From Limisphaerales bacterium (GTDB lineage: Bacteria; Verrucomicrobiota; Verrucomicrobiia; Limisphaerales; UBA11358), in the NCBI GenBank assembly GCA_003134375.1, contig PLAY01000099.1, positions 37,077 through 76,424 of the forward strand: DNA of 39,348 bases. Reading direction: 5' to 3'. A model generated the notes under the pieces. The model had not been told where the DNA came from. It searched no databases and saw only the letters and a list, made by a program, of their open reading frames with translations. Position 1 is the stretch's first letter. The number at the start of each line of letters is the position of its first letter. This document shows positions 8,456 through 27,320 of the stretch, piece after piece. The position numbers and the translations under genes are program-made.

Positions 8456-8619
8456 ACGAGTTAAAAACGGTATGGTTGGATTAAGCCGAATTAGCTTGAA
8501 TAGCCAATGAAATCAGCTATATTTGAACTGCAAACGCGGGGATAAATGGCCGATTCCGACCCTCGCCTCCAATCCGAACCGTGTGTGCGGCAAGGATTTA
8601 TGAAAATTGACTGGCCGGA

Positions 8620-8643
8620 GCTCCAGCAAAAGCTCCAGCAAAA
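8620..8643 (+). repeat. Tandem 12-bp duplication before the integrase
   Basis: GCTCCAGCAAAA occurs twice back to back (8620-8631 and 8632-8643), about 90 bp upstream of the chosen integrase start. It may be an integrase arm site or a chance duplication. The rest of the 8410-8732 gap holds no gene I can support. Confidence 0.6.
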
Positions 8644-8732
8644 ATAGTATTGCGCACCATTGCGCGAGTATTGGCCAGTATCTGCTAACGCGGCTTCTTC
8701 GATACGAGGCATCCTTAACAACCAGGATGTCT

Positions 8733-9791
8733 ATGAAATGCAAATACCGTCTCTTCCAACGGAACAACGGGATATTTTTCATTCAAAACAACGCGACCGG
8801 CAAACAGGAAAGTCTCCGAACGCGGGACAAGGAAGCTGCGCGACGGATTTTCAACGCCAATAACGAGGCACACCAGCAGCCAGCCATCAACCTGCAAATC
8901 GCCCGCGCGTATTTGATGGCGTGTGATCCGCTCATCGTCAAACGCACCTGGCAGCATGTCATGGAAGAGTTGGTCAAAACCAAACATGGTTCGACCCAGG
9001 AACGCTGGCAACGAGCCATCAAGGACAAGGCTCTGGATTCGATTCGTTTACTGCCATTGATTGAAACCCAGGCGGAGCAGCTCTTTCGGGTGTTGGAGAA
9101 AGGAACGGTCTCGACGAATGTTCATTTGCGCAAGTTGCACAATTTTTGTCTGTCGATGAATTGGCTGCCGTGGCCGACCATTCCAAAGAAACTATGGCCG
9201 CCGGTTCAGTTCAAGGAGAAGCGAGCCATCACATTGGAAGAACACCGCCGGATTGTGGAACGGGAGAATAACCCGGAGCGCAAGAAGTTTTACGAACTGT
9301 GCTGGCACTTGGGCGGCAGCCAGGGCGACATCGCCAATTTGAAGGCCGAGGATGTGGATTGGGAAAATCGCACCGTCAGTTTTACCCGGAAAAAGACCGG
9401 CGTTCCGGTGATTCTGCATTTGGGCGAAGAAGCATTGAACACGCTGAAAGATTTGCCAAGCGAAGGGTTGCTGTTCCCCTACCTGTCGGGAGTCCGCGCC
9501 GGCGACCGGGCAACCGAATTCAAACAGCGTTGCCGGGGGCTTGGAATCGAAGGCGTATCACTTCACAGCTACCGCTACGCCTGGGCGGAGCGGGCCAAGA
9601 CTTGCGGTTATCCCGAACGCTTCGCGCAGGAAGCTTTGGGGCACAATTCCATCGCCGTGCATCGTGCCTATGCGAAAAAGGCCAAGGTGAAGCTGCCAAG
9701 CCTTGAGGAATACGAACGGAAAATTGTGCCGTTGCCAAACATGAATCATCGTGAAAATCCGGTTGGTACACCCATCAAGGAGGTCGTATGA
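8733..9791 (+). CDS. Tyrosine recombinase/integrase with atypical active site
   Basis: The 352-residue protein is a phage-type integrase. Numbering from the ATG at 8733, the C-terminal catalytic domain has a Lys in the TRKKTG beta-turn (~220), H-x-x-R in LHSYRYAWAER (278-281), the LGH of EALGHNS (304) and the nucleophile Tyr in HRAY (313). The usual first arginine (G-x-R-x-x-E) is replaced: GGSQGDIANL gives Ser196/Gln197 there. The start at 8733 is preceded by AGGA with 5-nt spacing; earlier in-frame starts lack this. It probably integrates and excises the mobile element that carries the relaxase and perhaps the BREX island. The stop overlaps the next gene's ATG by 4 nt. Confidence 0.88.
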   Translation: MKCKYRLFQRNNGIFFIQNNATGKQESLRTRDKEAARRIFNANNEAHQQPAINLQIARAYLMACDPLIVKRTWQHVMEELVKTKHGSTQERWQRAIKDKALDSIRLLPLIETQAEQLFRVLEKGTVSTNVHLRKLHNFCLSMNWLPWPTIPKKLWPPVQFKEKRAITLEEHRRIVERENNPERKKFYELCWHLGGSQGDIANLKAEDVDWENRTVSFTRKKTGVPVILHLGEEALNTLKDLPSEGLLFPYLSGVRAGDRATEFKQRCRGLGIEGVSLHSYRYAWAERAKTCGYPERFAQEALGHNSIAVHRAYAKKAKVKLPSLEEYERKIVPLPNMNHRENPVGTPIKEVV

Positions 9792-12461: not shown

Positions 12462-12812
12462 TCAATCGCTCTGCTCTGACTTTTTCGCCGGTTTGACCTC
12501 GGTCACGATGATGTTCTGAATTAAAGGCGTGCCATCAGCGGGCGAAAGCTGGTAGTTGGTTGACACCTTGGCAATGAACGCCAGTTCCTTTTTCTGCATC
12601 GCTATTTGAAGCCGTTTCAGATTTTTCCCGCTGATCAGAACTTCGTGCATGACAAAGACCAGACGGAGATGATGTTCCTTGTTTTCAATCTTGAGTTCGG
12701 CCAGCAGAAACTGATTGAACGGCAGCAGCAGGCAATGCTCGCTGGAAAGCTCAATCCGCAATCCGTCAGCCTGGGAATCACTCGACCAGCATTCGGTTGT
12801 TTTTGTGCTCAT
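12462..12812 (-). CDS. Hypothetical protein overlapping the relaxase 3' end
   Basis: The 116-residue soluble protein begins MSTKTTECWSSD and contains alternating strands and helices (HCLLLPFNQFLLAELKIENK, HHLRLVFVMHEVLISGK) with a Lys-rich tail (EVKPAKKSEQSD). Its ATG lies inside the relaxase gene, and the two frames overlap by 35 nt, which implies translational coupling. No motif or membrane segment is seen. By position it may be a mobilization accessory protein. The function is unknown. Confidence 0.6.
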   Translation of the reverse strand: MSTKTTECWSSDSQADGLRIELSSEHCLLLPFNQFLLAELKIENKEHHLRLVFVMHEVLISGKNLKRLQIAMQKKELAFIAKVSTNYQLSPADGTPLIQNIIVTEVKPAKKSEQSD

Positions 12813-15594
12813 ATTTTTGGTTGTGTTGATGTTTGCTTTGCTCGGTTTTTTTCAGACGGCAAATGGTGTCGGCCACCTCCTTGCCAAAGCGGAGGAGATA
12901 ACCGTGAAGTTTGTCCCAAAGCTGCAAACCGGGTTGCTGATGGAAATCCCTGGCAAATTCAAACGCCAGCGGACGGTGCCCGGAACGGGCAACATTTTCC
13001 CGGAGCTGTTCCTTGTCGGGCGTGAAAATACGGATGCCGCGCCGGCCGCGCGAGATGGTCACATACCACTGCTGCGCGTTGGTCGCGGCCTTGACGGTGG
13101 AATCGGAAAACAGAACGAAATCCACCGTTTTGCCCTGTGAACCGTAGGAGGTGACGGCATAGCCGGGTAGAAATTCCCGGAAACTTTTATCCAAAACACG
13201 GCCATCGGCCAATTCAATGCCGCCGTCAGCGCGAACGGATTTCACCGTGACCAGTTCACCATTGGTGATCCGGCTGCCGGATGCCAGCTTACGGTTGGCC
13301 TTCAGGTGCAGCCGGTCATTTTGGGAAATCGGAAGTTCACGCGGGAGACAGACGTTGATTTTGTCGAGCATCTTGCTTGGGACGGTGATGAACCGTCCGT
13401 CTACTTCGACCAGCACGCCCGACTTCACGATACCGCCCAATTTCCCGGTCTTGCCCGGCTGGGCATCCCGCACCTTTTGATTGAACACAATCACGGCATC
13501 GGGGGGATAGAACCGTTCATCCCGCTTCTGTGCGTTGGTCAAATCGAGGCGGTCAAGGATTTGAACGGCGGTATCCGCCACGCCGAGCAATCCTTTTGCT
13601 TTTAACGCTTCACGCACCTTGGCGTTGATGCGATGAACTTCACCCCACGTTTGAGACACCACCACGGCAGTGGCCGATTGTTCAATGACGCGGACATATT
13701 CATCCGCCAGCTTGTCAGACTGTTCACCCAAGCCGCACGCCACCACCGCACGCATCTTCTCCAATTGTTCAAACGATTCGACCAGTTTGCCCGCCGCCGC
13801 CAGTTCGACAACCTTGCGATACTGCCGGATGGACGCACGTTCCTTTTTGTCCCGGCCAAGTGTCGGGTTCTGCCGCCGGATTTTATGCAGTTCAACCGGG
13901 CGAATCCCCGAATGGCGTTCGATGGCCAGCAGCGCATCCGAAGCTTCGACTGCTCCATGCTGGCGCGTGTCGCCCGAAAGTACCAGCCGGGCATTGCGTT
14001 CACACACCAGCCGGACCAATTCGAGCATTTGTTTCCCGCCAATCTGGCCGGCCTCGTCCACCACGACGACTGTGCCTTCAGCCAGTTCACGTTTGAGCAG
14101 AAAATTGGCAACTGTCGTGGGTGACGGGAAACCCGCTGTTTCCATTTCCACCACCTGCTGGCGTTGCGGCGCGAGGACCACCACGCCCCGGCCACCGTCG
14201 CGGATTTGTTCGACCAACTCACGCAGGACGAAACTTTTTCCAGTGCCCGCACCGCCACGAAATGACGACACCCGGTCAATTGATGAAATCAAATCAGCAA
14301 GCGCCTTGCGCTGCTCCTCGTCCAACTTTGGATTGGCCGGACGCGGTTTCCATACCAGCGGATAACATTCGCCGACACCGGCTTTGACCGTTTGAACAAT
14401 CTCCATTTCACGCAACAAGACCTCGCGCAAAGTGACTTCATTCGGACGCTCCTCATTGCGGATATAATTTCGCTGGCGCGTGAACGCTTTGAGTTCAGCG
14501 AGGGAGAAATCCTCACCGCGCGCCCGTTCCAATGCCTGCTGCCATATCTGGCATTCCAGCACGACGGACTTGCGCTCAAACAAATGTTCTTCCGCCCATT
14601 GAATGGCGTCAGCCAGGCCGACGCGTTCACTGGCGGCAACATTCTTTTCCGGCCGGCTTGAAAGCTGGCGCAACGAATCGCGTTCGGTTTTGCTCATCTG
14701 TGCATCCCATAGAGATTGCAGTTCATCACGGCTCAAATCCTTTTGTTTTCGTGTCCGCTCGGCGGTCGCCAGTCGTTCCCGCAAATCCTTGATGTTTGTG
14801 CCAGCCAGTTCAGGCTTGCCAGCGAGCAGCTTGGCCACGGCCTTGTCAATCTGCGCGTCTCGTTTGGAAAAACGCTCGCAGAGTTCTTCGGAGACGCCTT
14901 CAATCTGGAAGTCACCGCTCATCCGGTTGTGAATCGAATAACCGAATGAACGCAATTCACGGGCGAGTTCATGGTAATAAGCGTTCTCGGCGAATTTCCG
15001 CGCCCGCAAAAGCTCATAATTCTGGAGGGCCTTCCAGCGATTTTCCGCCGAATCAAACGTCGCGTTGAAGACAATGCAATGCGTATGCAGATGCGGATCG
15101 AGGGCGCGCGACGTGTCATGGGTGAACAGCGCCGCCGCAAAATTGCCGGTTCGCCGGTCAACGTTCGCGCCACCGGCCCGGACGCGCGTGGAAGCAAACA
15201 CTTCAAACTCGCGCAAAGCTGATCGCACTGCGCGCTCATGCGCCTCAAGGATGCGCCCGTCTTCACCGGCCAGCGCGACCATCGAAACGGATTTGGGCGG
15301 GGAGAAAGTGAAATCGTAAAATATCCGCCGATTGGCCGCAGCGTGGCCGTCTTCGACCCGTGTCGTGTTGATCCGTTGCGTCAAGGTTTCACCCGTGGCC
15401 GGATGCTGATTTTCGCAGAGCCGCAGAAAATCATCCGCGCGGATTTTCCCCGACAAGCCAAGCCGTTCCACGCCCAACCCATACCAGTCACCCGCCACCC
15501 GCTGGCCCTCGTTGTAATAGTCGCCGACGCAAAGATGCTCCTCAAAGTATTCCCTGGCGTTCTTCAGATTGTATTGCGTCTTGGCCGTGACCAC
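12778..15594 (-). CDS. MOBF-type conjugative relaxase-helicase (TrwC/TraI/TraA family)
   Basis: This protein nicks oriT and unwinds the transferred strand. The N-terminal TrwC relaxase domain has a tandem Tyr (~26-27, DYYNEGQ), the segment IFYDFTFSPPKSVSMVALAG, and the three-His metal site HDTSR...LDPHLHTHCIVFN (~159-172). From ~420 a RecD/TraI-like superfamily 1 helicase follows, with Walker A FRGGAGTGKS (~445-454), Walker B VVVDEAGQIG (~512), and the late motifs YAVTSYGSQGKTVD and QWYVTISRGR. I start at GTG 15594, which has AGGG 7 nt upstream; a TTG at 15600 is in frame but badly spaced. About 940 residues is normal for a compact MOBF protein. It is divergent from the coupling-protein operon, with a likely oriT between. 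Confidence 0.93.
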   Translation of the reverse strand: MVTAKTQYNLKNAREYFEEHLCVGDYYNEGQRVAGDWYGLGVERLGLSGKIRADDFLRLCENQHPATGETLTQRINTTRVEDGHAAANRRIFYDFTFSPPKSVSMVALAGEDGRILEAHERAVRSALREFEVFASTRVRAGGANVDRRTGNFAAALFTHDTSRALDPHLHTHCIVFNATFDSAENRWKALQNYELLRARKFAENAYYHELARELRSFGYSIHNRMSGDFQIEGVSEELCERFSKRDAQIDKAVAKLLAGKPELAGTNIKDLRERLATAERTRKQKDLSRDELQSLWDAQMSKTERDSLRQLSSRPEKNVAASERVGLADAIQWAEEHLFERKSVVLECQIWQQALERARGEDFSLAELKAFTRQRNYIRNEERPNEVTLREVLLREMEIVQTVKAGVGECYPLVWKPRPANPKLDEEQRKALADLISSIDRVSSFRGGAGTGKSFVLRELVEQIRDGGRGVVVLAPQRQQVVEMETAGFPSPTTVANFLLKRELAEGTVVVVDEAGQIGGKQMLELVRLVCERNARLVLSGDTRQHGAVEASDALLAIERHSGIRPVELHKIRRQNPTLGRDKKERASIRQYRKVVELAAAGKLVESFEQLEKMRAVVACGLGEQSDKLADEYVRVIEQSATAVVVSQTWGEVHRINAKVREALKAKGLLGVADTAVQILDRLDLTNAQKRDERFYPPDAVIVFNQKVRDAQPGKTGKLGGIVKSGVLVEVDGRFITVPSKMLDKINVCLPRELPISQNDRLHLKANRKLASGSRITNGELVTVKSVRADGGIELADGRVLDKSFREFLPGYAVTSYGSQGKTVDFVLFSDSTVKAATNAQQWYVTISRGRRGIRIFTPDKEQLRENVARSGHRPLAFEFARDFHQQPGLQLWDKLHGYLLRFGKEVADTICRLKKTEQSKHQHNQKYEHKNNRMLVE

Positions 15595-15627
15595 ACCCAA
15601 ACCCTATCGGAACCTGCCCATGATTTT

Positions 15628-15718
15628 TTGCAGTTGCTGCAAGTTCGCACACCGCTTTTGTGGTGAGCTAGGGCCATGTGCGAAATCGAAACGCTTAAAC
15701 GCGACCGTCTGACCTAGC
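15628..15718. promoter_or_regulatory. Nested inverted repeats between relaxase and mobilization operon (candidate oriT / divergent promoter)
   Basis: Three perfect inverted repeats are packed in ~90 bp. TTGCAG-ttg-CTGCAA spans 15628-15642. TTCGCAC (15644-15650) pairs with GTGCGAA (15678-15684). GCTAGG (15667-15672) pairs with CCTAGC (15713-15718). Position next to a MOBF relaxase and between divergent transfer genes is typical of oriT. No known nic consensus was recognised, so the call is contextual. Confidence 0.45.
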
Positions 15719-15719
15719 C

Positions 15720-15974
15720 ATGCCAACCACCACCACCGCCCAATTACGCACCGCCATCGAGGTGCTAAATAAGCTTGCCGAACGCCTCAACGAACAGGCC
15801 GCGCATTCGGTGATTCAGATGCCGGAATCACGCCTGGGTGACGACTACGCCACACGGATTGAATCACGAACCATTGAGCAAACCACCCGGATTGAGACCG
15901 TTGCCGCGCAACTGAAAAGCTGGCGGGAAGAAATTCTTCAACAGCAGAAGCAATCCATTTCCATCCATGTTTAA
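15720..15974 (+). CDS. Small coiled-coil protein, first gene of mobilization operon
   Basis: The 84-residue protein is entirely hydrophilic and helical (LRTAIEVLNKLAERLNEQAA, then RTIEQTTRIETVAAQLKSWR), with heptad spacing suggesting dimerisation. It starts directly after the nested repeats and its stop overlaps the next frame by 8 nt. Small helical proteins at this position often assist relaxosome assembly. That role is inferred; no family is recognised. Confidence 0.6.
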   Translation: MPTTTTAQLRTAIEVLNKLAERLNEQAAHSVIQMPESRLGDDYATRIESRTIEQTTRIETVAAQLKSWREEILQQQKQSISIHV

Positions 15975-16353
15975 CACGATTTTTTCACAGGCAAGCCCTA
16001 CCCCTTCGCCAGCGAAGGATTTTATGTCCGCGAAGTGGTCGCGGAATGGATGCGGTATGTCCGCACCGTGTCCGGCCTGGATGTCCGCGTCCTTGTCCAC
16101 TCGCTGTCCGCAAACAGGCCACGGACAGTCCGTGTCCGCGTCCAGTCCGCGGTCGCAGTCACGGACGCGACATGTCCGCACTGATGGTCTCAAGACAGTC
16201 CGCAGGCCGGCCACCGCCATGTCCGCAAAATGTCCGCGCAAAGTCCGCGACCTTGGACGCACCATGTCCGTATACAGTCCGCAACACCGGATTGTCCATG
16301 ACCACTGGCTGGCTGCCGAATGTCCGCATGGCGGCCACGCCATGTCCGCATGA
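15967..16353 (+). CDS. Repeat-derived ORF (MSA-rich), doubtful protein
   Basis: The frame starts 8 nt before the stop of the preceding gene and ends 3 nt before the next ATG, so it fits the operon. Its 128-residue product is dominated by the GTCCGC array: MSAKW, MSAPC, MSASL, MSAKC and a final MSA. It is rich in Cys, Arg and Pro without a recognisable fold. Because GTCCGC boxes fall in different frames within it, selection seems to act on the DNA rather than on the peptide. It may be a by-product of the array, kept open to maintain translational coupling. Confidence 0.3.
   Translation: MFNTIFSQASPTPSPAKDFMSAKWSRNGCGMSAPCPAWMSASLSTRCPQTGHGQSVSASSPRSQSRTRHVRTDGLKTVRRPATAMSAKCPRKVRDLGRTMSVYSPQHRIVHDHWLAAECPHGGHAMSA
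16026..16349 (+). repeat. Array of GTCCGC boxes with ~11-bp phasing
   Basis: Fourteen exact GTCCGC copies, all in the same orientation, start at 16026, 16059, 16083, 16106, 16134, 16145, 16174, 16198, 16221, 16232, 16243, 16277, 16322 and 16344. One-base variants are at 16069, 16128 and 16266. Many are preceded by AT (ATGTCCGC). Most start-to-start distances are close to 11, 22-24, 33-34 or 45 bp, placing many boxes on one face of the helix. The array lies directly upstream of an HTH gene and a ParA-like gene, so it may be a partition (parS-like), iteron or relaxosome site. Confidence 0.85.
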
Positions 16354-16356
16354 CCC

Positions 16357-16767
16357 ATGTCCTCGTTTGATCCCATCATCGCACGCAAGGCGGTCACGGA
16401 ATTTGCCCCGCCCCGGCCGGAGCGATTCCGGGAATTATCCGCCGCGAAGGATTTCATCACCGAGTTGCGGCAAAAACGCGCCTCGTATCGCTCCATCGCC
16501 GACCTGCTCACCCGGCATGGCCTGCCGATCGGCAAAACTGCCGTGGCCGCATTCTGCCATGTAGTGCTGGGTGAGACATCCCGTTCCAACAAACATCGCG
16601 TGCGAAAGCGTCCACTGATTTCTGATTCGGCCAATGGCCAATTACCTCTCCCCGCTACACCACCATCTGTCCCGCCGGCCACCGGCAACGGCGGCGAAAA
16701 TCCGCAAACCCGCGTTCGCGGTCCGCGCATCGCACAAATCCGAATGCTCAAACCACAAAATCCATGA
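16357..16767 (+). CDS. Putative HTH DNA-binding protein of mobilization operon
   Basis: The 136-residue protein has a helical N-terminal half with AAKDFITELRQKRASYRSIA followed by LLTRHGLPIGKTAVAAFCHV. This looks like a resolvase/sigma-type helix-turn-helix as found in small mobilization proteins. The C-terminal half is Pro/Asn/Arg-rich and probably disordered. The gene begins 8 nt after the last GTCCGC box and overlaps the ParA gene by 4 nt (ATGA). It is the best local candidate to bind the array, possibly acting as the DNA-binding partner of the ParA-like ATPase. The binding role is inference. Confidence 0.6.
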   Translation: MSSFDPIIARKAVTEFAPPRPERFRELSAAKDFITELRQKRASYRSIADLLTRHGLPIGKTAVAAFCHVVLGETSRSNKHRVRKRPLISDSANGQLPLPATPPSVPPATGNGGENPQTRVRGPRIAQIRMLKPQNP

Positions 16768-17459
16768 AACGTCTCGACCTCATCCTCAACGGCAAAGGCG
16801 GCGTCGGCAAAAGTTTCTTCGCCATCAACTTTGTTCAATACCTGAAAGACAAGGGCATCACCCACGTCGCCATTGACAGCGACAACGAAAACTCGACGCT
16901 GAAACGGTTTCATCCCGATGCGCGGTTCGTTGACCTAGACGACCGGCGCGGGCCGGACGCCATTTTCAGCACCTTGGAGAAATCGAATCTCGTGGTCATG
17001 GACTGCCGCGCCGCGTCCACCGACCTGTTCATTGATTTCTTTGCCCAAATCAACCTGCCGACTGTGCTGTCGGCGCTCGGCGCGTCACTCACGCTGGTCA
17101 TGCCGGTCAATCACGAATCCGACAGTGTGGATCAGGTGCAACGGCTGGCCGACGAGTTTGGCAAAAAGTGCGGTTACGTGGTGGTTCGCAATGCCGCCCA
17201 TAGTGAGAGCTTCACGCTCTATGAAGGTTCCGAAGTCTGCGCCCAACTCAAGGATAAGCTGGCCGGCAAAGAAATCGCCATGTCACAATTGCAAGATTGG
17301 CTCGTTGTGGCGCTCAACGAGCAGAATTTAACCATCACGGCGGCAGCGAAGCATCCCGCTTTCAGTCTGCTGGACCGGCAGCGGCTGCAAACCTGGCAGC
17401 ACAAATTTTACGCCGGGATCGAATCCGCCGCCGACCTGCTATTGCCCGCCAAACCATGA
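16764..17459 (+). CDS. ParA/MinD-family P-loop ATPase
   Basis: The 231-residue protein starts MKRLDLILNGKGGVGKSFFA, with the deviant Walker A (KGGVGKS, residues 11-17) and both signature lysines. VAIDSDNENSTL follows as the Walker A' region, then LVVMDCRAAS (Walker B-like). ATPases of this class move or position plasmid DNA or transfer proteins, using ATP-driven dimerisation on nucleoid or membrane. No ParB is visible, but a small HTH gene and a repeat array are adjacent. It is coupled by 4-nt ATGA overlaps to both neighbours. It may serve partition of a plasmid form or polar placement of the transfer machinery. Confidence 0.85.
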   Translation: MKRLDLILNGKGGVGKSFFAINFVQYLKDKGITHVAIDSDNENSTLKRFHPDARFVDLDDRRGPDAIFSTLEKSNLVVMDCRAASTDLFIDFFAQINLPTVLSALGASLTLVMPVNHESDSVDQVQRLADEFGKKCGYVVVRNAAHSESFTLYEGSEVCAQLKDKLAGKEIAMSQLQDWLVVALNEQNLTITAAAKHPAFSLLDRQRLQTWQHKFYAGIESAADLLLPAKP

Positions 17460-17827
17460 GCACACCCAACAAGGACAAGCCCGACTTCGACGAGGAATTT
17501 GACCAGACCGTCGCGCAATGGCGTGAACAGCATAAACTGCGTGAAGACGATGCCGTGCTATTGCTTGTCGAATTATTCCGCATCCACCAACATCATTGGG
17601 ATCAACTGCGCCGCCGGGAGATGCCCTCCTTCGAGCAATTCCGCTCCGACATTGGGTTGCTTACGGCAGCGGCGAAAACATTTCAACAACAGGTTTCAAC
17701 CCTGATTGAATCCCTCAAAAAGCTGCCGGCGGCTGCGCCTTCGGAAAATGTCACGCTTGTTGCCGCCATCTTTGCCGTGATTGCTGCTCTGCTCGGCGGT
17801 TATCTCATCGGGAGGGCCTGGCCATGA
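17456..17827 (+). CDS. Small C-terminally anchored membrane protein of mobilization operon
   Basis: The ATG at 17456 overlaps the ParA stop, giving a 123-residue protein. Residues 1-90 are acidic and helical (DFDEEFDQTVAQWREQHKLR; TAAAKTFQQQVSTLIESLKK). The C-terminus is one membrane helix (VTLVAAIFAVIAALLGGYLI) with a short basic end. It overlaps the coupling-protein ATG by 4 nt. Tail-anchored helper proteins like this often sit beside type IV coupling proteins and may link them to the relaxosome or the membrane. No family name can be given. Confidence 0.7.
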   Translation: MSTPNKDKPDFDEEFDQTVAQWREQHKLREDDAVLLLVELFRIHQHHWDQLRRREMPSFEQFRSDIGLLTAAAKTFQQQVSTLIESLKKLPAAAPSENVTLVAAIFAVIAALLGGYLIGRAWP

Positions 17828-19311
17828 AAGTCGATTTTGTTCCATTCCACTCAACCCATCTTTCAATCTGGTTCAAATGTCTCCGGCCAATTGTGTTTGG
17901 ATATGGCGTTTTGCTGGTCATCATGGCCATCTGGCTTTTGGTGACCTCGCGCGCACGCAAGAACCATGTCGCGCAACTCGGCGGGCTGACTTGGAAACGC
18001 AATCAATTCTGCCGGGGCTGGCTTATCACCGGCGACACCGGCTCCGGCAAGACCAGTTCCGGCATCAATCAACTCGCCCACCAAGTCTTTCAAAACGAAC
18101 CCGAATGGGGCGGGCTGTGCATTGATGAAAAGGGCGTTTATTGGGAGACGCTCGTGGCGATGGCAAAATTTTACGGGCGCGAGCACGACCTTATTCACCT
18201 GCAAATCCGCGCGGACGATTCGGACACGCAATGGACGCCGCCGCACCGCTACAACTTGACCGGCGACCGCAGCATTCCCTTTATGACATACGCCAAGTTT
18301 GTCATAGATACGGCAACGAGCCTGGGACAAGGCGGTGACAAGGGGTTTTTCAAGAGCCAGGCGCAAATCCACATCACCAATGCGCTGGAGCTTTTATTCG
18401 AGTTGAGGCGTCCCGTCACGCTGGCTGGCGTTGCCAAGCTGCTCACCGACACCGATTTTCTGAAGGAACAAATAGACAATCTTGGAAATCTGGTTGAAAC
18501 GCCACGGCGCGCCGCCGTTAAGGAGCATTTTTTGAATCGCTTCATCAATGACCAGCCGCCCGAACAAATCGGCGGTGTGCGGGAAACCACCGGCAACTAT
18601 CTGCAATACTTCCTGACTCCGGAAGTCGCCGAGGTGTTCTGCACCGGAGAAAGCACATTTGATTTTGCCGCCATTGACAAAGGAAAAATCATCTGCGTTA
18701 CCATGCCGCAAAAGTTTCAAACCGAGCGGCGTTATGTCAACACGTTCCTGAAATTGCTTTTCTACAATCACGCACTGCGCCGGTTCGACAAATCAAAGGC
18801 CAAACGCGCCAAAGATAACTTGCTCATTCTGTGGGCGGATGAAGCACAGCGATTTATGACCGCCAGCGAGGACGGGACGAGTGATTACAATTGCGTGGAT
18901 GTGATCCGCGAAGCAGGCGCAACCATCGTTGCCGCCGCCCAATCCACCACGTCCCTTGTGCCGCCGCTTGGGAATGACAAGTCGAAGGTGCTGACGTTGA
19001 ATTTGCGCAACCGGATGATTTTCCGTTCCGCCGACGAAGCGGATGCCGTTCAAGCCGCAGATTTTCTTGGCAAAAAACAAGTCGTGAAACGTTCGTGGGG
19101 TTCAAGTGCGGGAAAGCGCAGCGTGAATTTCTCCGAAACCGACGAACACAAAATTAAACCGCACAAGCTCCGCAACCTGCGCGACCATGAGTGCGTCCTC
19201 GTCCACTGCGAACGGGGATTCCGCCGCGTGACGCTGCCTCCTTTGGAGGCTGACGGAAGTGTTTCCAACTGGTTCAGTTGGTGGATGCGGTTGTCGAGAT
19301 TGCAACCGTGA
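17824..19311 (+). CDS. Type IV coupling protein (VirD4/TraD-like ATPase)
   Basis: This 495-residue protein would pump relaxosome DNA toward a conjugation channel. One N-terminal membrane helix is seen (~22-41, PIVFGYGVLLVIMAIWLLVT). The ATPase domain has Walker A WLITGDTGSGKTSS (~67-79), then GLCIDEKGVYWE, and Walker B LLILWADEAQRFM (~340). A late arginine-containing segment (TLNLRNRMIFRSADEADA) resembles the VirD4/TraG C-terminal region. It is the last gene of the + strand mobilization operon. Its stop is 2 nt from the stop of the convergent defence nuclease. No VirB-type channel genes are present, so transfer would need a helper system. Confidence 0.85.
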   Translation: MKVDFVPFHSTHLSIWFKCLRPIVFGYGVLLVIMAIWLLVTSRARKNHVAQLGGLTWKRNQFCRGWLITGDTGSGKTSSGINQLAHQVFQNEPEWGGLCIDEKGVYWETLVAMAKFYGREHDLIHLQIRADDSDTQWTPPHRYNLTGDRSIPFMTYAKFVIDTATSLGQGGDKGFFKSQAQIHITNALELLFELRRPVTLAGVAKLLTDTDFLKEQIDNLGNLVETPRRAAVKEHFLNRFINDQPPEQIGGVRETTGNYLQYFLTPEVAEVFCTGESTFDFAAIDKGKIICVTMPQKFQTERRYVNTFLKLLFYNHALRRFDKSKAKRAKDNLLILWADEAQRFMTASEDGTSDYNCVDVIREAGATIVAAAQSTTSLVPPLGNDKSKVLTLNLRNRMIFRSADEADAVQAADFLGKKQVVKRSWGSSAGKRSVNFSETDEHKIKPHKLRNLRDHECVLVHCERGFRRVTLPPLEADGSVSNWFSWWMRLSRLQP

Positions 19312-19313: not shown

Positions 19314-20561
19314 TCAAAGGCCGCGCGGCGAAACAATTACCACAACTCGGAGGCCACCCGAAATGGCCGCAACATCCTTCTCCAGAGCAACGGGGTTGTC
19401 GCAATAGCCTTCTGGATCGTAAACGAGGCAGACCAGTGTCCGACAATCAGGGTGCGTTCGATACCTTTCCTTGTCCTCGATAAGTTGGTTGGCGACTTCC
19501 TTTTGTCCAAGGGTCTTGCGAGTCATCTTCGCTTCAACCACCACCTTCTCGGATTTCAGTAGAAAATCCATTCGGCTCGAATTCCCCGCGTAGCTCGGCG
19601 TAACTTCTTCCGGCCTCACATCATCAAAATGAAGAAGAAGCAAAGCGTGCAGTAAATCTTGAACATCATACTCATCCTTGATGCGAAATCCTGGGCGGCT
19701 GTCGTGACGCGTGCTAAGTTGCCGTGCAAACAGAGGAAATCTTCGACATACATTCTCGACCAACGCGGCAGCATCTTTCTCCGGTCTGGTTAACTGCCAC
19801 GTTTCTGCGAGCGCGGATTCAAGCCTTGCTGTTGCCGCCGCACGCAGCGCCACCCAAATCACTGCTGCCTCGGCTGTGTCGCGCGGTTCAACTGGATTGG
19901 TTATACATCGCCCCAGCAATTCTCGATCAAGAGCGGCAAAGCCATCACTAACAAGTGAAGGCGGGACGAAGTCATTTCTCCAAAGCGAAACCCAACGAAG
20001 CACCGCGATTTCGGTGAGGGTCAAAAGTTCAAGCTGGCTACCGACCTCTCGCGCTCCAGCAATTCCCAGCGTTTGTCCGGCCAATCGGTAAAGCCACCGC
20101 GCCCATACCTCAGAATGTTCCTGTTCAAGCAGTCGGCCCACAACATTGTTAAGCCAAGCAGCCAACTCAGCATCCGCCTTTTCATCACTCATCTGGCCCA
20201 GGCATATTCCCAACACTTCGAGCGGTCGGTATGTAAACGCAGACCGATCCGCTGGAAAAGCTTCTCGTTGTGAAAGCTTCTTCAACGCTGCACGCCAGTC
20301 CACGTCGCAAGGTAAGTTGGGACCTTTCACCCGGATTGAGCGCAAATATCCTGTCGCCGCTAAAACGGGTGCCTCACTCAATCGTCTTGGCTCTGACACA
20401 AGTGCTGCTAGGTTTCCCAGGAACAAATTATTTTGTCGCGCCGAATTGAACACATAGGCAGCGAAGCCCACCTCTGGAGAAAGTCGGCTGCCGTTGGCTC
20501 TGAGGAATTGCTCCAGAGTTTGCAACTGCGCTCCGAATGAAAGTGTGAGTTCCCGGCTCAT
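19314..20561 (-). CDS. pAgo-associated nuclease with DpnII/MboI-like PD-(D/E)XK domain
   Basis: The C-terminal ~120 residues match the restriction-endonuclease domain of DpnII/MboI type: DEYDVQDLLHALLLLHFDDV, PSYAGNSSRMDFLL and VVVEAKMTR. The likely catalytic residues are Asp332, Glu343 and Lys345, followed by QLIEDKERY and CLVYDPEGYCDNP. The N-terminal ~290 residues are helical and unassigned; they may sense activation or bind the Argonaute. The start is the ATG at 20561, which overlaps the Argonaute stop by 4 nt (ATGA); an in-frame ATG at 20570 would add three residues. Its tight coupling suggests it is the effector unleashed when the inactive Argonaute finds invader nucleic acid. The activation model is inference from known inactive pAgo systems. 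Confidence 0.85.
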   Translation of the reverse strand: MSRELTLSFGAQLQTLEQFLRANGSRLSPEVGFAAYVFNSARQNNLFLGNLAALVSEPRRLSEAPVLAATGYLRSIRVKGPNLPCDVDWRAALKKLSQREAFPADRSAFTYRPLEVLGICLGQMSDEKADAELAAWLNNVVGRLLEQEHSEVWARWLYRLAGQTLGIAGAREVGSQLELLTLTEIAVLRWVSLWRNDFVPPSLVSDGFAALDRELLGRCITNPVEPRDTAEAAVIWVALRAAATARLESALAETWQLTRPEKDAAALVENVCRRFPLFARQLSTRHDSRPGFRIKDEYDVQDLLHALLLLHFDDVRPEEVTPSYAGNSSRMDFLLKSEKVVVEAKMTRKTLGQKEVANQLIEDKERYRTHPDCRTLVCLVYDPEGYCDNPVALEKDVAAISGGLRVVVIVSPRGL

Positions 20562-22852
20562 AGAAACCATTTACTTGCCCTGAGCTTTACATTGAGCATC
20601 GCCGGTGACCAGTCTGGAACGTGTTTTAGGCGACTCAGCAGGCCCGCGATTAAATCTGAATAATAGATTGTCACAGGGAGCTTCGCTGGCAACGTGGAAC
20701 GCCATGACAAGGACGTAAATTTCAGCACTTGCTCGGTCAGGGATGACAAGGAGCGATAGGTTGATTCGGGATGAATATGAACCAGCAACGGAGCGGGAAG
20801 CGGCGAAGTCTCTCGCTTGATTAGTTCTGGGCCATTCGTGCAGAGGAGCCGCGTAAAACTTCCCAACTGTGAAATGAGGCCGCGCATCGGCACATAAGTC
20901 GCCTTAAACGCCCCGTGCTTGTTTCGCACCGCAATTCCTCTTTGCTCCTTATCCAAAATCAGAAATGAGTGATCCTGGGTCACTGTGAGAAATGCGAATT
21001 CAATATTTTGTTCGTTTCCCACGCTCTCAACACATTTGCGCATTATTTGGCCGACCTCAACATTCTTCAAGGGTTTGAACGAATGGACGACCACACGAAC
21101 CGTATCCCCTTTTTGCCAACCGTTTCTACGTTTGATCTCTTCGAGGATTTGGACTGTGCTCTTTTCAAGCACAGCAGGATAATCTTGATAACCACATTCG
21201 GACGAAAGGTTCGACAGTAGATAATTCCCGTCTCCGCGAAAGACGGTAGTGATTCCAATGAATCGTTGTTTCTCAACAAAGCGACTTTCCAACAATTCAC
21301 AAGTGCCGACACCGATAACCAACTCATCGGCGATGCTCAAGTCATGGTCCACCGTCCACGGAATTCCATTGAGCTTCGCATACAAAGCGACGGCGATGTT
21401 CTGGAGACTATACTGCAAGTTCATTTCCGCTTGGCTGATAGTGGACACCCGGACATCTTGGACTGGTATTCCCGCCATCAAGAGCACCGCTTTGGAATGC
21501 AGATACGGATTATCTACGTCAGGAAGTTTTTCGTGTTCGTTTAATACAACCACGATGGCCGCGTCGAAGCTTCCGCCTGCACTCAGGAAATCCTCGACCG
21601 CCTTCCGATAAACTTGGGAGGGCTTCCCCGCAGGTTTTGCCAACCACGGCACACGACAGAAAACAAATTCTGGATTCACCAAGCCGAAAGTTTTGGCGAA
21701 GCCGCCACTAAACGCCGAATTCCCTTGCTCCAGATTTACGCCGTCACGGAAATAGCGCAAAAATCTTTCGACTGCTCCTTGGACTGAATCCGGGAACACC
21801 ACCAAAATTCTTGGTGATTTCTTTCCAAAAGTATCGCGGCTGAATGGGCCAAACCGATCCAAACCTTGCCACGCGTATTTGTGCCGCTTGCTTCGCGCCG
21901 AATCAAAACAGTAATCTACTGGTGGTGCGAGCAGATGGGTTTTATAGCTGTCCACATTCTCGATGATAATTTGCTCGCCGACAGAACACTCCAATCCAGA
22001 ACAAAGGGTGATGGGGGAAGCCTTGGCAAGGTAGCCCCCCATTCGCGTCACCATCACGTCCAACGCCGGGCCTGTCAGACACGCCGCCTCTTGAAACTGT
22101 CTCTCCTTTTCAAAACTCTCGTAACGGTTACCGAGCAATTGCTTTAGACATTGACTGAACGACGCACGCGAACCCTCCAACATCACATCATCGGCACAAA
22201 TCGAGTCTGTGCCATCGAACGATTCGGAGAGTAACACTTGCAACCCGGATAATTGTCGAATCCGGCCAACGAGCCGGCGCTGCTCTGGTTCGGGATTTCT
22301 CCGCACTACATATAAACCTTGGATATTCACTCCTGCCGCAACCAACTCATCGAGCGAAGCGGTGATCAACCAATTTGTCGAAACCACGAGGAACAGACCA
22401 ACCTCCAGCACTCCGTCTCTCAATTCAATCAATCGTGCGTCCAACTCGAACTTGGGATGAATTTTGAAGCCGTTCATGACTTGCGGTAGCCCCGCAAGCT
22501 TCCCACGGATGGCTTCAACCATTTCGCCTTTTTTGCCACGAAAAGTGAATGGGCGCCGACGAAAGGCTTCATAGTCTGGAAACTTCTCCGGCAACACATC
22601 GTGAATCCGTGCTGCGAGCAGCTTGAGATGATCGGCACAGCGCAGTGTTTTGGACTCGCCGAACTTTGTCCCGGGATTTGCCGACCTAGGCATACCGTAG
22701 CAGACCCCTTCCTGCCAGTGCAGAAACCACGAGCCTTTTAATTGGTTTCGCAGCGGTTTGAGTTCTTTGTTGTCCGCCATTGCGCGGACGTATCCTGCGA
22801 ACTCATCGCTCGAAAACCTAATCCTGAAGCCGTTCAAATAAAGTGTGCTCAT
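20558..22852 (-). CDS. Prokaryotic Argonaute, long-B-like, catalytically inactive
   Basis: The 764-residue protein has a MID domain (~340-495) with DNPYLHSKAVLLMAGIPVQ, in which Tyr450, Lys454, Gln465 and Lys493 (YAKLNGIPW) fit the guide 5'-phosphate pocket. It has a PIWI domain (~495-764) that ends TSLSWRSTLPAKLPVTIYYS...LRASKWFL, the classic C-terminus. The catalytic DEDX set is broken: VIGVG replaces the usual IGxD at ~512-516, and VVVHSFK at ~587-593 lacks the third-position Asp. Residues 1-330 form the N/PAZ-like part. It should bind a guide and target without cutting. It follows brxL by 14 nt and overlaps the nuclease gene by 4 nt, so it is both a BREX operon member and the sensor of a nuclease pair. 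Confidence 0.92.
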   Translation of the reverse strand: MSTLYLNGFRIRFSSDEFAGYVRAMADNKELKPLRNQLKGSWFLHWQEGVCYGMPRSANPGTKFGESKTLRCADHLKLLAARIHDVLPEKFPDYEAFRRRPFTFRGKKGEMVEAIRGKLAGLPQVMNGFKIHPKFELDARLIELRDGVLEVGLFLVVSTNWLITASLDELVAAGVNIQGLYVVRRNPEPEQRRLVGRIRQLSGLQVLLSESFDGTDSICADDVMLEGSRASFSQCLKQLLGNRYESFEKERQFQEAACLTGPALDVMVTRMGGYLAKASPITLCSGLECSVGEQIIIENVDSYKTHLLAPPVDYCFDSARSKRHKYAWQGLDRFGPFSRDTFGKKSPRILVVFPDSVQGAVERFLRYFRDGVNLEQGNSAFSGGFAKTFGLVNPEFVFCRVPWLAKPAGKPSQVYRKAVEDFLSAGGSFDAAIVVVLNEHEKLPDVDNPYLHSKAVLLMAGIPVQDVRVSTISQAEMNLQYSLQNIAVALYAKLNGIPWTVDHDLSIADELVIGVGTCELLESRFVEKQRFIGITTVFRGDGNYLLSNLSSECGYQDYPAVLEKSTVQILEEIKRRNGWQKGDTVRVVVHSFKPLKNVEVGQIMRKCVESVGNEQNIEFAFLTVTQDHSFLILDKEQRGIAVRNKHGAFKATYVPMRGLISQLGSFTRLLCTNGPELIKRETSPLPAPLLVHIHPESTYRSLSSLTEQVLKFTSLSWRSTLPAKLPVTIYYSDLIAGLLSRLKHVPDWSPAMLNVKLRASKWFL

Positions 22853-22866
22853 TCCTGGTCCTTGGG

Positions 22867-24915
22867 TTATTCCACCAGCGCCTTCAAAAAGGCGTCTTTC
22901 GAGTCGGCGTAAAACTCGATGCTGATTTTCGTCGCCAGCGCGTCCGGCAGATCAAACAACTGCTTCCGTGCCGATATTGGCATCAGCAACGTCGTCGCGC
23001 CTTTCTCCACCGCCAATTCCGCGACGGCCACCGGGTTCGCAATCATCTCCACCGACCCGCCCAGATTAAGCGCGCCCACGACAATCAATCCACCCTTCAC
23101 GCTGCGTTCGATCAACCCGCTGCACAGCGTCATGAGCACGGCCAGCCCCACGCCGTGTCCAGACGTGTCGGAGTCCAGTGCCCGCAATTGCACGGAGAAC
23201 TCGTGCGCGCGAGGGTCGCGGTCGCCGACTAACTCCTTCGCCCGCGTGTAAAGGTTTTGCTCGCCGTAACGCACGCTCTCGCGGAATGCCGGCGACACCG
23301 GCGCGTTCAGGATTTTCACGCCGCCGCCCGGTCCGACCGTCACTTCCAGCCGATACAGTGCCGGATTCGTTCCGTTCCCGCCGGGGCTGATGGTCCAGAC
23401 CTGTCCGGGCGGGAGCGGGTCGCTCTCGATGTGCTCATCGCTGTGCAATTCTGGCGTGGAAACGAATTGCTCCACGCCCTCGACGCCAAGGTGATAACTG
23501 AAATGCGTGTTCCGAAACTCCGTCCGCAGCACGCGCTTTTGCTGCTCCTTCACGCGCCGACGCGCTTCCAACGCCAGCCGCACGATCATTTCTAAATCTT
23601 CGTCGGGAATCTTCATGGCTGCATCGGGATACAGCAACTTGATCAGGCCGCTCACTGTCTTGCTTACGGCCTCGATGTCGCGTCCGCTCAACGCGCCGCC
23701 CCAATTCACCCGGCCTTGCAGCGCGGACAGCCGGCTGCCCGTCCGCAGTTTGTTCCAGCACTCCGCGAGGAAATCGCTCACCAGCCCGAAATGATCCGTC
23801 AGGTGCTCCCGCGCGCTGACTTTCGGGAATTCCCAGCCCGGCACGTAACAATGGATGCGATCCATGAACGCGCTGTCGTTTCGCATCTCCGGCGGCAGTG
23901 GCGTAAGCAAATGTCCGATGCGCTGCTGCTGCGTCACATCCACGTCAAAGTTGCCCACCATCACGATGCTGCCAAAGGCCCGGATACTTTCCTTGCCGCG
24001 CGAAAACTCGCCCGACGCCATGTAACCCTTCATGATGTTCACCCCGTCCTTCTGGTCGAACGAGATGCCCGATACTTCATCGAAGCACACCACGTCGTAA
24101 TGACATACCAGACCGCGCTGGCCACTTGCGTTGTTCACAAACATTTTCGCTACTGTCGCCTTGCCGCCGGAGATCAGATGCGAATAAGGCGAAATCTGTT
24201 GGAACAAATGGCTCTTGCCCGTGCCACGCGGCCCAAGCTCCACCATGTTAAAATTCCGTTCGACGAACGGAATCATGCGCAGCAACGTCACCGCCTTGGC
24301 CCGCTCGCTCAATGCCGCCGGCTCAATCCCAATCGAACGAATTAGTAAATCCGTCCATTCCTTGACCGTGAATTTCTTCCGCGCCTCTTCCATCGTTTGG
24401 AGAACGTCCGGTTTCGAGAGTTGAATCGGGCGCAGGCTTTCAATCGCAAAGGGCCGCCCGTTCTTTTCCTCGGCGATGGCTGCGTCATACGTCAGCGACA
24501 CTTCCGCGTAGAACCCGTCCGTCAGCATCCGCTCGTTGTCGTGAACCAGCTTGTCCTCAATCCGCACGTCCTTCAGGGCGAGGCTCGGCAGTTCCGCTAG
24601 AAAGCAATCATTCTTTGCATCCAGCCGCGCCTTGATGATGTCTATCAATTTCACCGAACCCTTCTCGCGGGCCCGCGCCTTGAACAATTCTTCCTCGCCC
24701 GTCCGCACCGTCCGGTCTTTCAGTTGCCGCTCGACGATTTGCAGACCTTCCTCGATTTCCTTTTCATCCGTCGTGGCGCAGTAGCGCCCGAGCAGGAACT
24801 CGACGACATACGTCGGCACTGGATATTGCCGGCTGTATTTCCGCACCAGATCCTTGCGCACCATATAGCCTTGAAAGGCCGACGCGCCCAGCTTGTCTAA
24901 ATCATCCATTGTCAT
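22867..24915 (-). CDS. brxL: BREX type 1 protein BrxL (AAA+ ATPase with Lon-like C-terminal domain)
   Basis: The 682-residue protein matches BrxL in length and order. The AAA+ core has Walker A LGPRGTGKSHLF (~227-238) and Walker B VVCFDEVSGI (~275-284). The C-terminal ~160 residues resemble the Lon protease fold (VQLRALDSDTSGHGVGLAVL at ~576-593, then GGLIVVGALNLGGSVEMIAN). By hand alignment, both the Lon Ser (within SGHGVG) and Lys (within IANPVAV) appear replaced, so proteolysis is doubtful. BrxL is known to bind DNA as hexameric assemblies and is needed for phage exclusion. The start has GGAGGAG upstream inside the last codons of pglZ, with a 2-nt gap. Confidence 0.92.
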   Translation of the reverse strand: MTMDDLDKLGASAFQGYMVRKDLVRKYSRQYPVPTYVVEFLLGRYCATTDEKEIEEGLQIVERQLKDRTVRTGEEELFKARAREKGSVKLIDIIKARLDAKNDCFLAELPSLALKDVRIEDKLVHDNERMLTDGFYAEVSLTYDAAIAEEKNGRPFAIESLRPIQLSKPDVLQTMEEARKKFTVKEWTDLLIRSIGIEPAALSERAKAVTLLRMIPFVERNFNMVELGPRGTGKSHLFQQISPYSHLISGGKATVAKMFVNNASGQRGLVCHYDVVCFDEVSGISFDQKDGVNIMKGYMASGEFSRGKESIRAFGSIVMVGNFDVDVTQQQRIGHLLTPLPPEMRNDSAFMDRIHCYVPGWEFPKVSAREHLTDHFGLVSDFLAECWNKLRTGSRLSALQGRVNWGGALSGRDIEAVSKTVSGLIKLLYPDAAMKIPDEDLEMIVRLALEARRRVKEQQKRVLRTEFRNTHFSYHLGVEGVEQFVSTPELHSDEHIESDPLPPGQVWTISPGGNGTNPALYRLEVTVGPGGGVKILNAPVSPAFRESVRYGEQNLYTRAKELVGDRDPRAHEFSVQLRALDSDTSGHGVGLAVLMTLCSGLIERSVKGGLIVVGALNLGGSVEMIANPVAVAELAVEKGATTLLMPISARKQLFDLPDALATKISIEFYADSKDAFLKALVE

Positions 24916-24917
24916 AG

Positions 24918-27320
24918 TTATTGATCTCCTCCCACCATCGTCGCTTGTTTGCTCAGAACCCGGCCGGTCGCGTCGAACACGACGATGCTCGTCGCCGTTC
25001 CCGCGAGGTTCTCATCTTCCACCAGCAGCCCGGCCTTGCCCTCTTTGTCGAAAGATTTCGTCTGCGTGATGCTTGTCTTCGGGTCGTTTGGCTTGGATCG
25101 CAGGTCGGCGAATAATCCCTCAACCGCCGGCTCGATGACCACGCGGCAGCGTTGCCCCAGCCATTGCACGCTCTCAATCTTCACCACCACGGCCTTGCCT
25201 TCTGTGGCGCTGCGGAATGTCAGGTCGGGCGTCACGCACTCTTGCGGACTCAATCCGCCGTGCGCGTATTCCGTCCCGCTTGAAAAGCAATACGCCCCTG
25301 GCGCGTAGGCAACCGGCTGCCGCGTGTCCCAAAACCAACCCGCCGCCGGCACGTCCGCTTGCGCGCCTTCTTTGATGACCGCACAGCGCGACCAGCGGCA
25401 CTCCGCCAGATATTTCTTGAGCGGCAACGACGGCAAACCGCCCGGCGCGAGCAGCCAGCCGTGATCGGTGATGACGCGCACCGTCCGCCAGCCGGTTTCG
25501 AGCAGATGAATGATGCGTTCCAGCACATGGTCGAGTTGTTCCTCGATCTGCCCCGCCAGCCGCGCTTGCAGTTTGTGGCCCAGCGCATCGAACTCGCCAT
25601 GCTCCGTCCATGCGCGGGCATCCTCACCCGCCGGCAAACCAGTATCCAATCCGCGCAATACTTGATGCCCCGTGGCAGTAATCGCGTCGCGCAAACGGTC
25701 TGCCGTCACTGGCCTCTTGCCGTCGGCGATGACCGGACAGAAATCCGCTCCCGCTTCTTCGCCCATCACCGCGAGCGCAGCCGGTGTCACCGCCGGTTTG
25801 GCCGTTGGCGTCACCGAGGGCAGCGCCGACAGGCGGTAGCCTTCCGTCGCCAGCAGTTGCCGTTCATGCGCCTTCGCCAGTAGCCGTTGCGCCACGTCAA
25901 AGCGCAACCCGTCCACGAACATCAGGCACTCGCCCGGTTCAGCGACCACCAGCCGTTCCTTCAAATCCGCCCGCCCCGGCAGCGGCCATTTGCGCGCCGC
26001 CGCTTGGAAATTCCGCGCTGTGTCATCCAGCCAGCCAAGATAAATGCTTCGAATGGCCGCGCTAACCGCCGCCATGTCATCGCTGGTTTTCACGCAAGCC
26101 AGCGCTCGCAACACCGCGTCGTCCGCCCGGTAGCCGCCCTTTAGGTAGGCACTTGCGATGGCATCGGGTGAATCACCGACCAGCGGCAACGCCGTGTGTT
26201 CGGCTAATGTCCGCAGATGTTCCAGCGCCACCGCCATTGGACTCAATCCCATCCGCGCCCACACCCAACCCCGCCTTGCGCCATGCTCTTGCTCCAGTTC
26301 CAGAATCGCCTTGCGACCTTCTTCCGCTACGAACTTTGGCAGCGCCATCAGCGCCGTGCGCAGGCTTTTTTCATCCTTCTCGTTTTCGTCCGGCCACGAA
26401 TCCCGTTGCACGAACAAGTCGCCCGGCCTCGCGCGCCGCAGCGCGGCGGGGATACCCGGATACAACGCGGGTGATTCCGTGAACCGCCGCCAAACTTCCG
26501 CCCACGCACCTTTCCGCAATCCCAATCGCTCTGCCGCCACCAAATCGCCTTCACTCACCGGGTCGAACTTGAACTCATCCTTGCAGCGCGAGCAAAACGC
26601 TTTCCAATGTGCCGTGTCCCAACCGTCGCGCGTCTTCGGGTCGCTGACCCATGCCAGCAAGTCGCGCACGGTGTCGCCCACCATCAGCTTGTCAAAATCT
26701 TCCGCCTCCAGCTTGTGTCCGCGTAGCGTGGAAATCGGTGCCGTCGCCAGCATGTCGAGCGCCCCCATTAAAGCGTTATGCGTCGCGTGATCGCGCGCCA
26801 TGTCCAGACCCAGCCCGCCATTCTCCGACATCAAAAACGCTTCCAACGTCCAGTCCTTGCCGTTCATTTGCGTCCATACCGCGCCGCGATATTGCAATTC
26901 CACCAGCGGCTTCAATTCTTCGGGACACTCCTCCGGCGACCGCAAATCTTGCCGGCTCACCTTCGGCAGATACAAAACCGGCACGGCACGCTTGCCCTTC
27001 TCCGCATCCGATGGGGAGAAGGTGTCCGCAGGACGGATGAGGTGTTCCATTCCCGGCATCGGCAATGCGCCGTCCACGATGCAGCGCAGCCAGATCGCCG
27101 GCCCGGTGAGTTGTTCTGGTTCGTATTCACCCAGCGTCAGCAATTCCGGCATCAGGGCGCGCAGCCGCGCCACGATCGGTTGCCAGTCGCCTTCCACGTC
27201 CGTCCACAAAATCGCCGCCGGCGGCAGACTGTCGCCGGAATTAAAACGGCCCGCCGCCGCGAGGCTCACCCTCACGGCTTCGACGAAGGTTCCGGCCGTG
27301 GTTGTTTTTTCAATGGGCAT
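24918..27320 (-). CDS. pglZ: BREX type 1 protein PglZ
   Basis: This is the signature BREX gene. The 800-residue protein carries a C-terminal PglZ domain of the alkaline-phosphatase superfamily, with FVDGLRFDVAQ (~468-478), the TPTAKPAVTP substrate-loop region (~504-513), VITDHGWLLAPGG (~616-628) and an EYAHGGLSPQE motif near residue 690. These Asp and His residues are the expected metal ligands. The N-terminal half is helical and variable, as usual. It overlaps the AIPR gene by 11 nt upstream and is 2 nt from brxL downstream. PglZ is essential in characterised BREX systems, though its exact biochemical role remains unsettled. Confidence 0.94.
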   Translation of the reverse strand: MPIEKTTTAGTFVEAVRVSLAAAGRFNSGDSLPPAAILWTDVEGDWQPIVARLRALMPELLTLGEYEPEQLTGPAIWLRCIVDGALPMPGMEHLIRPADTFSPSDAEKGKRAVPVLYLPKVSRQDLRSPEECPEELKPLVELQYRGAVWTQMNGKDWTLEAFLMSENGGLGLDMARDHATHNALMGALDMLATAPISTLRGHKLEAEDFDKLMVGDTVRDLLAWVSDPKTRDGWDTAHWKAFCSRCKDEFKFDPVSEGDLVAAERLGLRKGAWAEVWRRFTESPALYPGIPAALRRARPGDLFVQRDSWPDENEKDEKSLRTALMALPKFVAEEGRKAILELEQEHGARRGWVWARMGLSPMAVALEHLRTLAEHTALPLVGDSPDAIASAYLKGGYRADDAVLRALACVKTSDDMAAVSAAIRSIYLGWLDDTARNFQAAARKWPLPGRADLKERLVVAEPGECLMFVDGLRFDVAQRLLAKAHERQLLATEGYRLSALPSVTPTAKPAVTPAALAVMGEEAGADFCPVIADGKRPVTADRLRDAITATGHQVLRGLDTGLPAGEDARAWTEHGEFDALGHKLQARLAGQIEEQLDHVLERIIHLLETGWRTVRVITDHGWLLAPGGLPSLPLKKYLAECRWSRCAVIKEGAQADVPAAGWFWDTRQPVAYAPGAYCFSSGTEYAHGGLSPQECVTPDLTFRSATEGKAVVVKIESVQWLGQRCRVVIEPAVEGLFADLRSKPNDPKTSITQTKSFDKEGKAGLLVEDENLAGTATSIVVFDATGRVLSKQATMVGGDQ

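Follow-up and report, generated by a model that had tools for sequence, protein, structure and literature searches.

A periodic box array and a covarying hairpin in a proposed transfer-origin region of Verrucomicrobiota mobile elements

A dense box array inside a mobile-element module

The window, by which we mean the whole stretch of 39,348 nucleotides that was analyzed, carries an array of GTCCGC boxes among the genes of a mobile element (Table 1). Judged by sequence, these genes belong to a conserved Verrucomicrobiota mobile-element module that consists of a MOBF relaxase, an 84-aa gene (p84), a hairpin block, the array, a 136-aa helix-turn-helix (HTH) protein, a StbB/TraL-type ATPase, a small gene, and a coupling protein. 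The ATPase is encoded directly after the HTH protein, and the two genes overlap.

Table 1. Coordinates of the array and of neighboring features in the window
Feature	Position	Strand	Basis or remark
Tyrosine integrase of the element	8607..9791	+	Pfam Phage_integrase 9.2e-13
TrwC/MOBF relaxase-helicase, divergent to the array operon	12778..15600	-	Pfam TrwC 1.3e-82, NCBIfam MobF 2e-65
p84, 84-aa gene upstream of the hairpin block, conserved partner	15720..15974	+	tblastn matches in most relaxase-bearing relatives
128-codon ORF containing the array	15967..16353	+	open in relatives without amino-acid constraint
Hairpin block, proposed relaxase recognition/nic region of oriT	15979..16025	+	alignment A5, strong covariation
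GTCCGC box array, 14 exact and 3 near copies	16026..16349	+	proposed binding array of the StbA-like HTH protein
136-aa HTH protein, StbA/TraK-like architecture	16357..16767	+	HTH, Pro-rich linker, conserved C-terminal RGPRIA
ParA-type ATPase, TraL/StbB family, 231 aa	16764..17459	+	NCBIfam TraL 3.1e-15; 493 plasmids
Small gene, StbC/TraM position	17456..17827	+	ORF; synteny with R388 and IncP plasmids
TrwB/TraD-type coupling protein	17824..19311	+	Pfam TrwB_AAD_bind 6.9e-13

To the right of the coupling protein gene lies a defense island as cargo (19314-38364), with BrxL, a PglZ-like protein, AIPR, a BrxX-like methylase, BrxB, a Piwi-domain protein with a DpnII-like nuclease, and a TIR protein. 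Since BREX, Argonaute, and TIR genes sit on this element, the module may help explain how such defense genes move. The window also holds an IS110-family transposase ORF (5150-6916) that is unusually long at 588 aa, some 170 additional residues preceding the transposase domain.

The array is real and very probably functional. Our recount agrees with the sequence-only reading that prompted this analysis, which had described 14 exact and 3 near-exact boxes in one orientation within 324 bp; the near copies are GTCCGG at 16070 and GTCCGT at 16128 and 16266, and the minus strand of the same interval contains zero GTCCGC boxes. The array spans about 324-330 nt, with successive GTCCG-to-GTCCG spacings of 33, 11, 13, 23, 22, 6, 11, 29, 24, 23, 11, 11, 23, 11, 45, and 22; nowhere else in the window does a hexamer cluster as densely. 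Against the 14 real boxes, the top count over all hexamers per 324 nt had a mean of 5.2 and a maximum of 8 in 40 order-1 Markov sequences with the length and dinucleotide make-up of the window. As that reading had also held, the boxes keep to no one codon frame, all three being occupied, and they precede an HTH gene and a ParA-like gene, the latter of TraL/StbB type.

Two identities for the array were set aside. The sequence-only reading had offered replication iterons as one option, and no Rep initiator gene was found among the neighboring genes scanned. A known structured RNA was rejected on Rfam scans: positions 15500-17000 gave nothing convincing and one chance-level match, and over the window together with loci L009-L011 the sole match at gathering level was a tRNA in L009.

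Spacing, boxes, and an open frame across relatives

Phasing within the window's array alone is suggestive only. Its best period is 11.4 bp (P = 0.066 against random spacing), and the vector length at 10.5 bp is only 0.25. Phasing becomes certain when relatives are pooled. The same genome holds three more arrays, one with the whole operon (C48), one in a remnant (C186), and one adjoining a tyrosine integrase (C62). For the family as a whole, the region after the hairpin block was taken blindly, as the 280 nt from the block's end, in 101 copies (91 non-redundant), and a region was called periodic if its autocorrelation at 11-12 bp reached P below 0.05. This was the case for 73/91 post-hairpin regions, compared with 9/87 upstream stretches and 49/392 control stretches 0.9-2 kb away; about one-fifth of the copies lack significant periodicity. 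The autocorrelation of box positions that the earlier reading had looked to is thus weak in the window's array and plain in most of its relatives. Lag peaks in the family fall at 11, 22-23, 34, 45, and 57, and the mean period is 11.34 bp (bootstrap 95% 11.27-11.42). Helical phasing at 10.5 bp is therefore not supported, nor is the earlier suggestion that the boxes are bound on one face of relaxed B-DNA.

What do the arrays have in common besides their period? The box sequence differs between elements, being GTCCGC, GCCGGCG, TCGCAAGAC, GTGCTTCGC, or GTTGCTAACC in classes that were named by eye on copies from MAG contigs. With common lags and differing boxes, the spacing is shared across the family and the sequence is not. 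Of all 4-mers, GTCC is preserved best when related arrays are compared, at 66% of cases versus 37% overall; words of the same composition are mostly kept in 12-41%, and TCCG, which is part of the same box, in 59%. Moreover, the arrays diverge together with the HTH protein, more closely than with the neighboring ATPase. Array k-mers track HTH identity with a Mantel r of 0.85, and of 0.63 after StbB identity is removed (0.40 in the reverse test), a result to which linkage may contribute, array and HTH gene being adjacent.

The array also lies within an open reading frame. In the window, the start of the 128-codon ORF overlaps the stop of p84 and its own stop falls 3 nt before the HTH gene. One frame is stop-free in 19 of the 23 arrays of the closest group, and it is the same frame relative to the HTH start wherever the array length is a multiple of 3. 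The open frame of these relatives likewise starts over the p84 stop and ends by meeting or overlapping the HTH start. When the observed substitutions were placed at random, 41.3 stops were expected in the kept frame across 18 sequences (minimum 25 in 1000 simulations), and 2 were observed; the other two frames contain 40 and 44 stops versus 56 expected. Substitutions are spread over the codon positions at 0.229/0.262/0.254, and dN/dS is 0.82 in frame compared with 0.77 in an unrelated frame. The frame is kept stop-free without amino-acid constraint. We therefore think that the array is probably translated through, with its sequence set by DNA binding, and translation through it perhaps keeps the operon coupled.

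The open frame favors an array that is chiefly coding, in which the stretch separating p84 from the HTH gene would encode a fast-evolving Arg/Pro/Ser-rich protein, with the boxes as by-products. The absence of stops and the fit of the frame between the two neighboring genes speak for this reading. Against it stand the equal substitution at the three codon positions, the similar dN/dS in and out of frame, and a period, 11.34 bp, that is no multiple of a codon. In addition, arrays in integrase islands that lack the operon keep the period and the strand bias (GTCC 95, GGAC 5), while arrays without the operon share no single open frame. Given these points and the preservation of GTCC, we rejected a coding repeat as the main cause and regard a chiefly coding array as improbable, although the open frame itself stands. 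The sequence-only reading had held that protein coding does not explain the boxes, and had set conservation of the boxes against conservation of the 128-residue peptide. For the boxes it was right, as the period and the even spread of substitutions over codon positions show; the open frame kept in relatives is something it did not foresee.

Selection against stops would also fit translation-transcription coupling, as expected of an RNA-level element, either Rho-utilization-like or an attenuator, that has a C-rich sense strand and stays silent as long as the ORF is being translated. Of 63 arrays with an HTH gene, 55 have more C than G. However, several arrays have balanced or G-rich boxes, the array is kept in islands where no operon lies downstream, and Rfam offers no match. 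We consider an RNA-level role to be the least probable of the readings discussed here, with only a slight chance of being correct.

The hairpin block, the HTH protein, and relaxase-less carriers

The hairpin block contains the conserved CAAGCCCTACCCC at 15992-16004 and a 6-bp stem that pairs 16003-16008 with 16013-16018. In relatives, the stretch between p84 and the HTH gene opens with CAAGCCTTACCCC, followed by a stem-loop, and the inverted repeat with its conserved CAAGCCTTACCCC lies between the relaxase and coupling-protein genes in most copies. The stem covaries: 90% of cells are paired, with 32 double-change cells versus 10.5 in shuffles. The folding energy of the single minus strand is unexceptional (z -0.86); the case for the hairpin rests on covariation. 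An intrinsic terminator is not favored as the whole explanation of the hairpin, as several copies lack a complete T-run and the conserved sequence is found 5' of the stem.

A covariance model of the block, R1, matched 54/320 genomes and 23/118 genera of the order at E up to 1e-4. Within the genus the block co-occurs with the relaxase family (18/21 versus 11/28 genomes, P 0.0013). Additional loci in which R1 places the block ahead of HTH and StbB genes include some titled Spartobacteria. Searched against R388, IncN, and IncP plasmids, it gave no match at E below 0.9; the R388 relaxase is of a different subfamily.

Read on the minus strand, the hairpin comes first and the conserved GGGGTAGGGCTTG after it. 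A hairpin and then a conserved sequence is the arrangement known for MOBF oriTs, and in R388 the hairpin GCGCACCGAAAGGTGCG precedes TATTGTCTATAG. By this analogy, nicking is predicted at this place on the minus strand. If this prediction is right, the array would lie on the lagging side, unlike in R388.

A sister relaxase group, about 50% identical (L031, L035, and L045), has a hairpin CCTTG...CAAGG with a different 5' flank, CGCTGTTCT. Where HTHc directly follows at these loci without a StbB match in the fetched stretch, there is no array. This pattern fits a hairpin that is read by the relaxase and an array that is tied to the StbA/StbB pair. Two further loci from two genomes, L106 (G010:C13, 4579-9141) and L114 (G032:C89, 5225-9747), have a split relaxase gene whose halves flank the p84-hairpin module on opposite strands. 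The arrangement looks like an inversion that ended on one side within the relaxase gene and on the other within the array or the StbB gene, and it could be an assembly error or real.

The protein that would read the array is likely a member of the StbA family by sequence. Profile comparison with hhalign matched the HTH family to a joint StbA/TraK alignment at E 1.4e-5 (probability 80), and more modestly to StbA and TraK taken singly (probability 49 and 22). The HTH family and StbA/TraK also share an architecture, namely an HTH, a proline-rich linker, and a short C-terminal motif, and an AlphaFold model of the 136-aa protein has a confident HTH core at residues 31-70 (pLDDT ~90). Foldseek gave no significant match to the HTH model, and VIA-align returned GcrA-type HTH domains at Z 5.9 or less, a common arrangement; the solved StbA domain 7pc1 was outside the aligned candidates of both fold searches, which proves nothing.

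Hairpin and array also occur in loci without a relaxase. In several genomes they are flanked by a tyrosine integrase on one side and a small HTH gene on the other (L011, L109, L110, L111, L153, and L155). Elsewhere, close to a serine recombinase, they surround an HTH gene that stands alone, and they often form an inverted pair there (L105, L096, and L044). The fetched stretches of these loci gave no relaxase match except at the far end of L096, where the relaxase belongs to another copy of the module. The relaxase-less islands are probably oriT-only hitchhikers that are moved by other elements.

Individual loci of this kind show further features. L105 (2376-8755) contains, in order, a serine recombinase, the hairpin, the array, a lone HTHb gene, a second and inverted hairpin match, and a group II intron reverse transcriptase. 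In L098 (3001-3728), hairpin and array occur twice, in inverted orientation, over about 730 bp, some 1.1 kb from an SRP54 (ffh) gene. Neither between the copies nor near them was there a match to HTH or relaxase, and the pair is possibly a minimal non-coding unit. In the integrase islands of L109 and L011, a conserved GGTCGCGTCAA...TTGACCCGCCCGCCGCCG stretch follows the array, and a similar stretch occurs in L009. It is a candidate attachment site or terminator.

A proposed origin of transfer and its known counterparts

We propose, with a probability of about 0.72, that the array is a binding array for the StbA-like protein encoded at 16357-16767 and that together with the hairpin block it forms the origin-of-transfer region of a MOBF element. 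The sequence-only reading had put forward a relaxosome-loading or centromere-like array, and this part of it gains from the position of the array, the stbA/traK-stbB/traL homology, the family periodicity, the conservation of the boxes, and the relaxase-less carriers of the hairpin.

A centromere in the stricter sense is the nearest competitor. Here the HTH protein and the ParA-type ATPase would segregate an excised, replicating element in the manner of a type Ib-like partition system, and transfer would be secondary. A ParA-fold ATPase, an adjacent DNA-binding gene, and iterated sites are all present, and in R388 StbA with stbDRs stabilizes the plasmid. However, that stability needs no StbB (PMC3098194). 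The ATPase here is nearest to the conjugation branch, TraL/StbB, and in nearly all gene-bearing copies the module is framed by relaxase and coupling protein. Finally, the relaxase-less islands retain the array, and no ATPase match was found in them. A partition centromere is thus unlikely, if less so than a coding array.

How would an origin of transfer built on such an array work? The relaxase would nick at the hairpin block, and HTH protomers would occupy neighboring units of the array, spaced by about 11.3 bp. The StbB/TraL-like ParA-type ATPase and the TrwB coupling protein would then carry the nucleoprotein complex to the secretion channel. Alternatively, when the HTH protein dominates, the element would be held back and its own operon repressed, much as StbA of R388 represses its own promoter (PMC3937220). 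In R388, deletion of stbA raises both transfer and loss, and deletion of stbB abolishes transfer (PMC3098194). By analogy with these effects and with the self-repression, the HTH protein is likely to set the balance between retention and transfer. Relaxase-less islands with hairpin and array would be mobilized in trans.

A further and more tentative idea, which we think has the odds against it, is that the array acts as a specificity code. The 11.34-bp unit would be constant and the box sequence free, each helper's StbA-like protein would read its own box type, and relaxase-less islands would match it. Helpers would hide the array in a frame kept open only for the passage of ribosomes, and the code would be order-wide in Verrucomicrobiota.

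These results offer a testable origin of transfer for mobile elements of Verrucomicrobiota, a phylum for which a limited literature search found no worked-out conjugation system. The hairpin and the 11.34-bp array together are a searchable mark for relaxase-less islands, for which the way of transfer is seldom known. Moreover, a frame that is selected to stay open without amino-acid constraint, across a proposed protein-binding array, is unusual and directly testable.

The closest known counterpart is stbABC with stbDRs of plasmid R388 (IncW, MOBF11). Both systems combine a MOBF relaxase, a coupling protein, an oriT, repeats of about 11 bp, an HTH gene, an overlapping ParA-type ATPase gene, and a third small gene; in R388 the genes for relaxase, coupling protein, and TrwA (TrwC/TrwB/TrwA) face oriT, stbDRs, stbA, stbB, and stbC. 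R388 StbA binds stbDRs, which are two sets of five 9-bp repeats with 2-bp spacers (PMC3098194), and in NAH7 the StbA homologue TraD protects oriT DNA over its operon promoter (PMC12421886). Our autocorrelation test gives lags of 11, 22, and 33 for the R388 stbDRs and for the stb regions of IncN and P. putida; we preferred these lags to a comb estimate of 10.71 for R388, which came from one sequence and was discarded as noisy. The differences are several. The R388 repeats are strictly 11 bp, whereas the arrays described here average 11.34 bp, are longer (often about 400 bp), and vary widely in box sequence. In R388 the repeats are on the other side of the proposed nic, while here the hairpin lies between the proposed nic and the array. 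Also unlike R388, the HTH protein is only distantly alike, the array lies inside an open frame, and relaxase-less islands carry the array too.

Other systems share single parts of this design. IncP plasmids (R751 and RP4) resemble it in the layout of TraK-TraL-TraM, with an HTH gene beside oriT and TraL as the nearest relative of the ATPase, but they use a MOBP relaxase, and upstream of traK their 11-bp periodicity is weak or absent. In the pWBG749 family of oriT mimics, accessory-protein sites likewise set oriT specificity, and non-conjugative elements with matching oriTs are mobilized in trans; however, SmpO is a ribbon-helix-helix protein with few sites on staphylococcal plasmids (PMC8136818), whereas the carriers here are integrated islands. 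The iOriT elements (PMC11389934) also pair an integrase with a proposed oriT in the absence of a relaxase, and the present islands differ from them in having two recombinase classes, a Verrucomicrobiota host, a long accessory array, and putative mobilization. Altogether, we regard the array system as one of the StbA-stbDR kind, made unusual by a constant 11.34-bp unit under changing boxes and by a frame that is kept open without amino-acid constraint.
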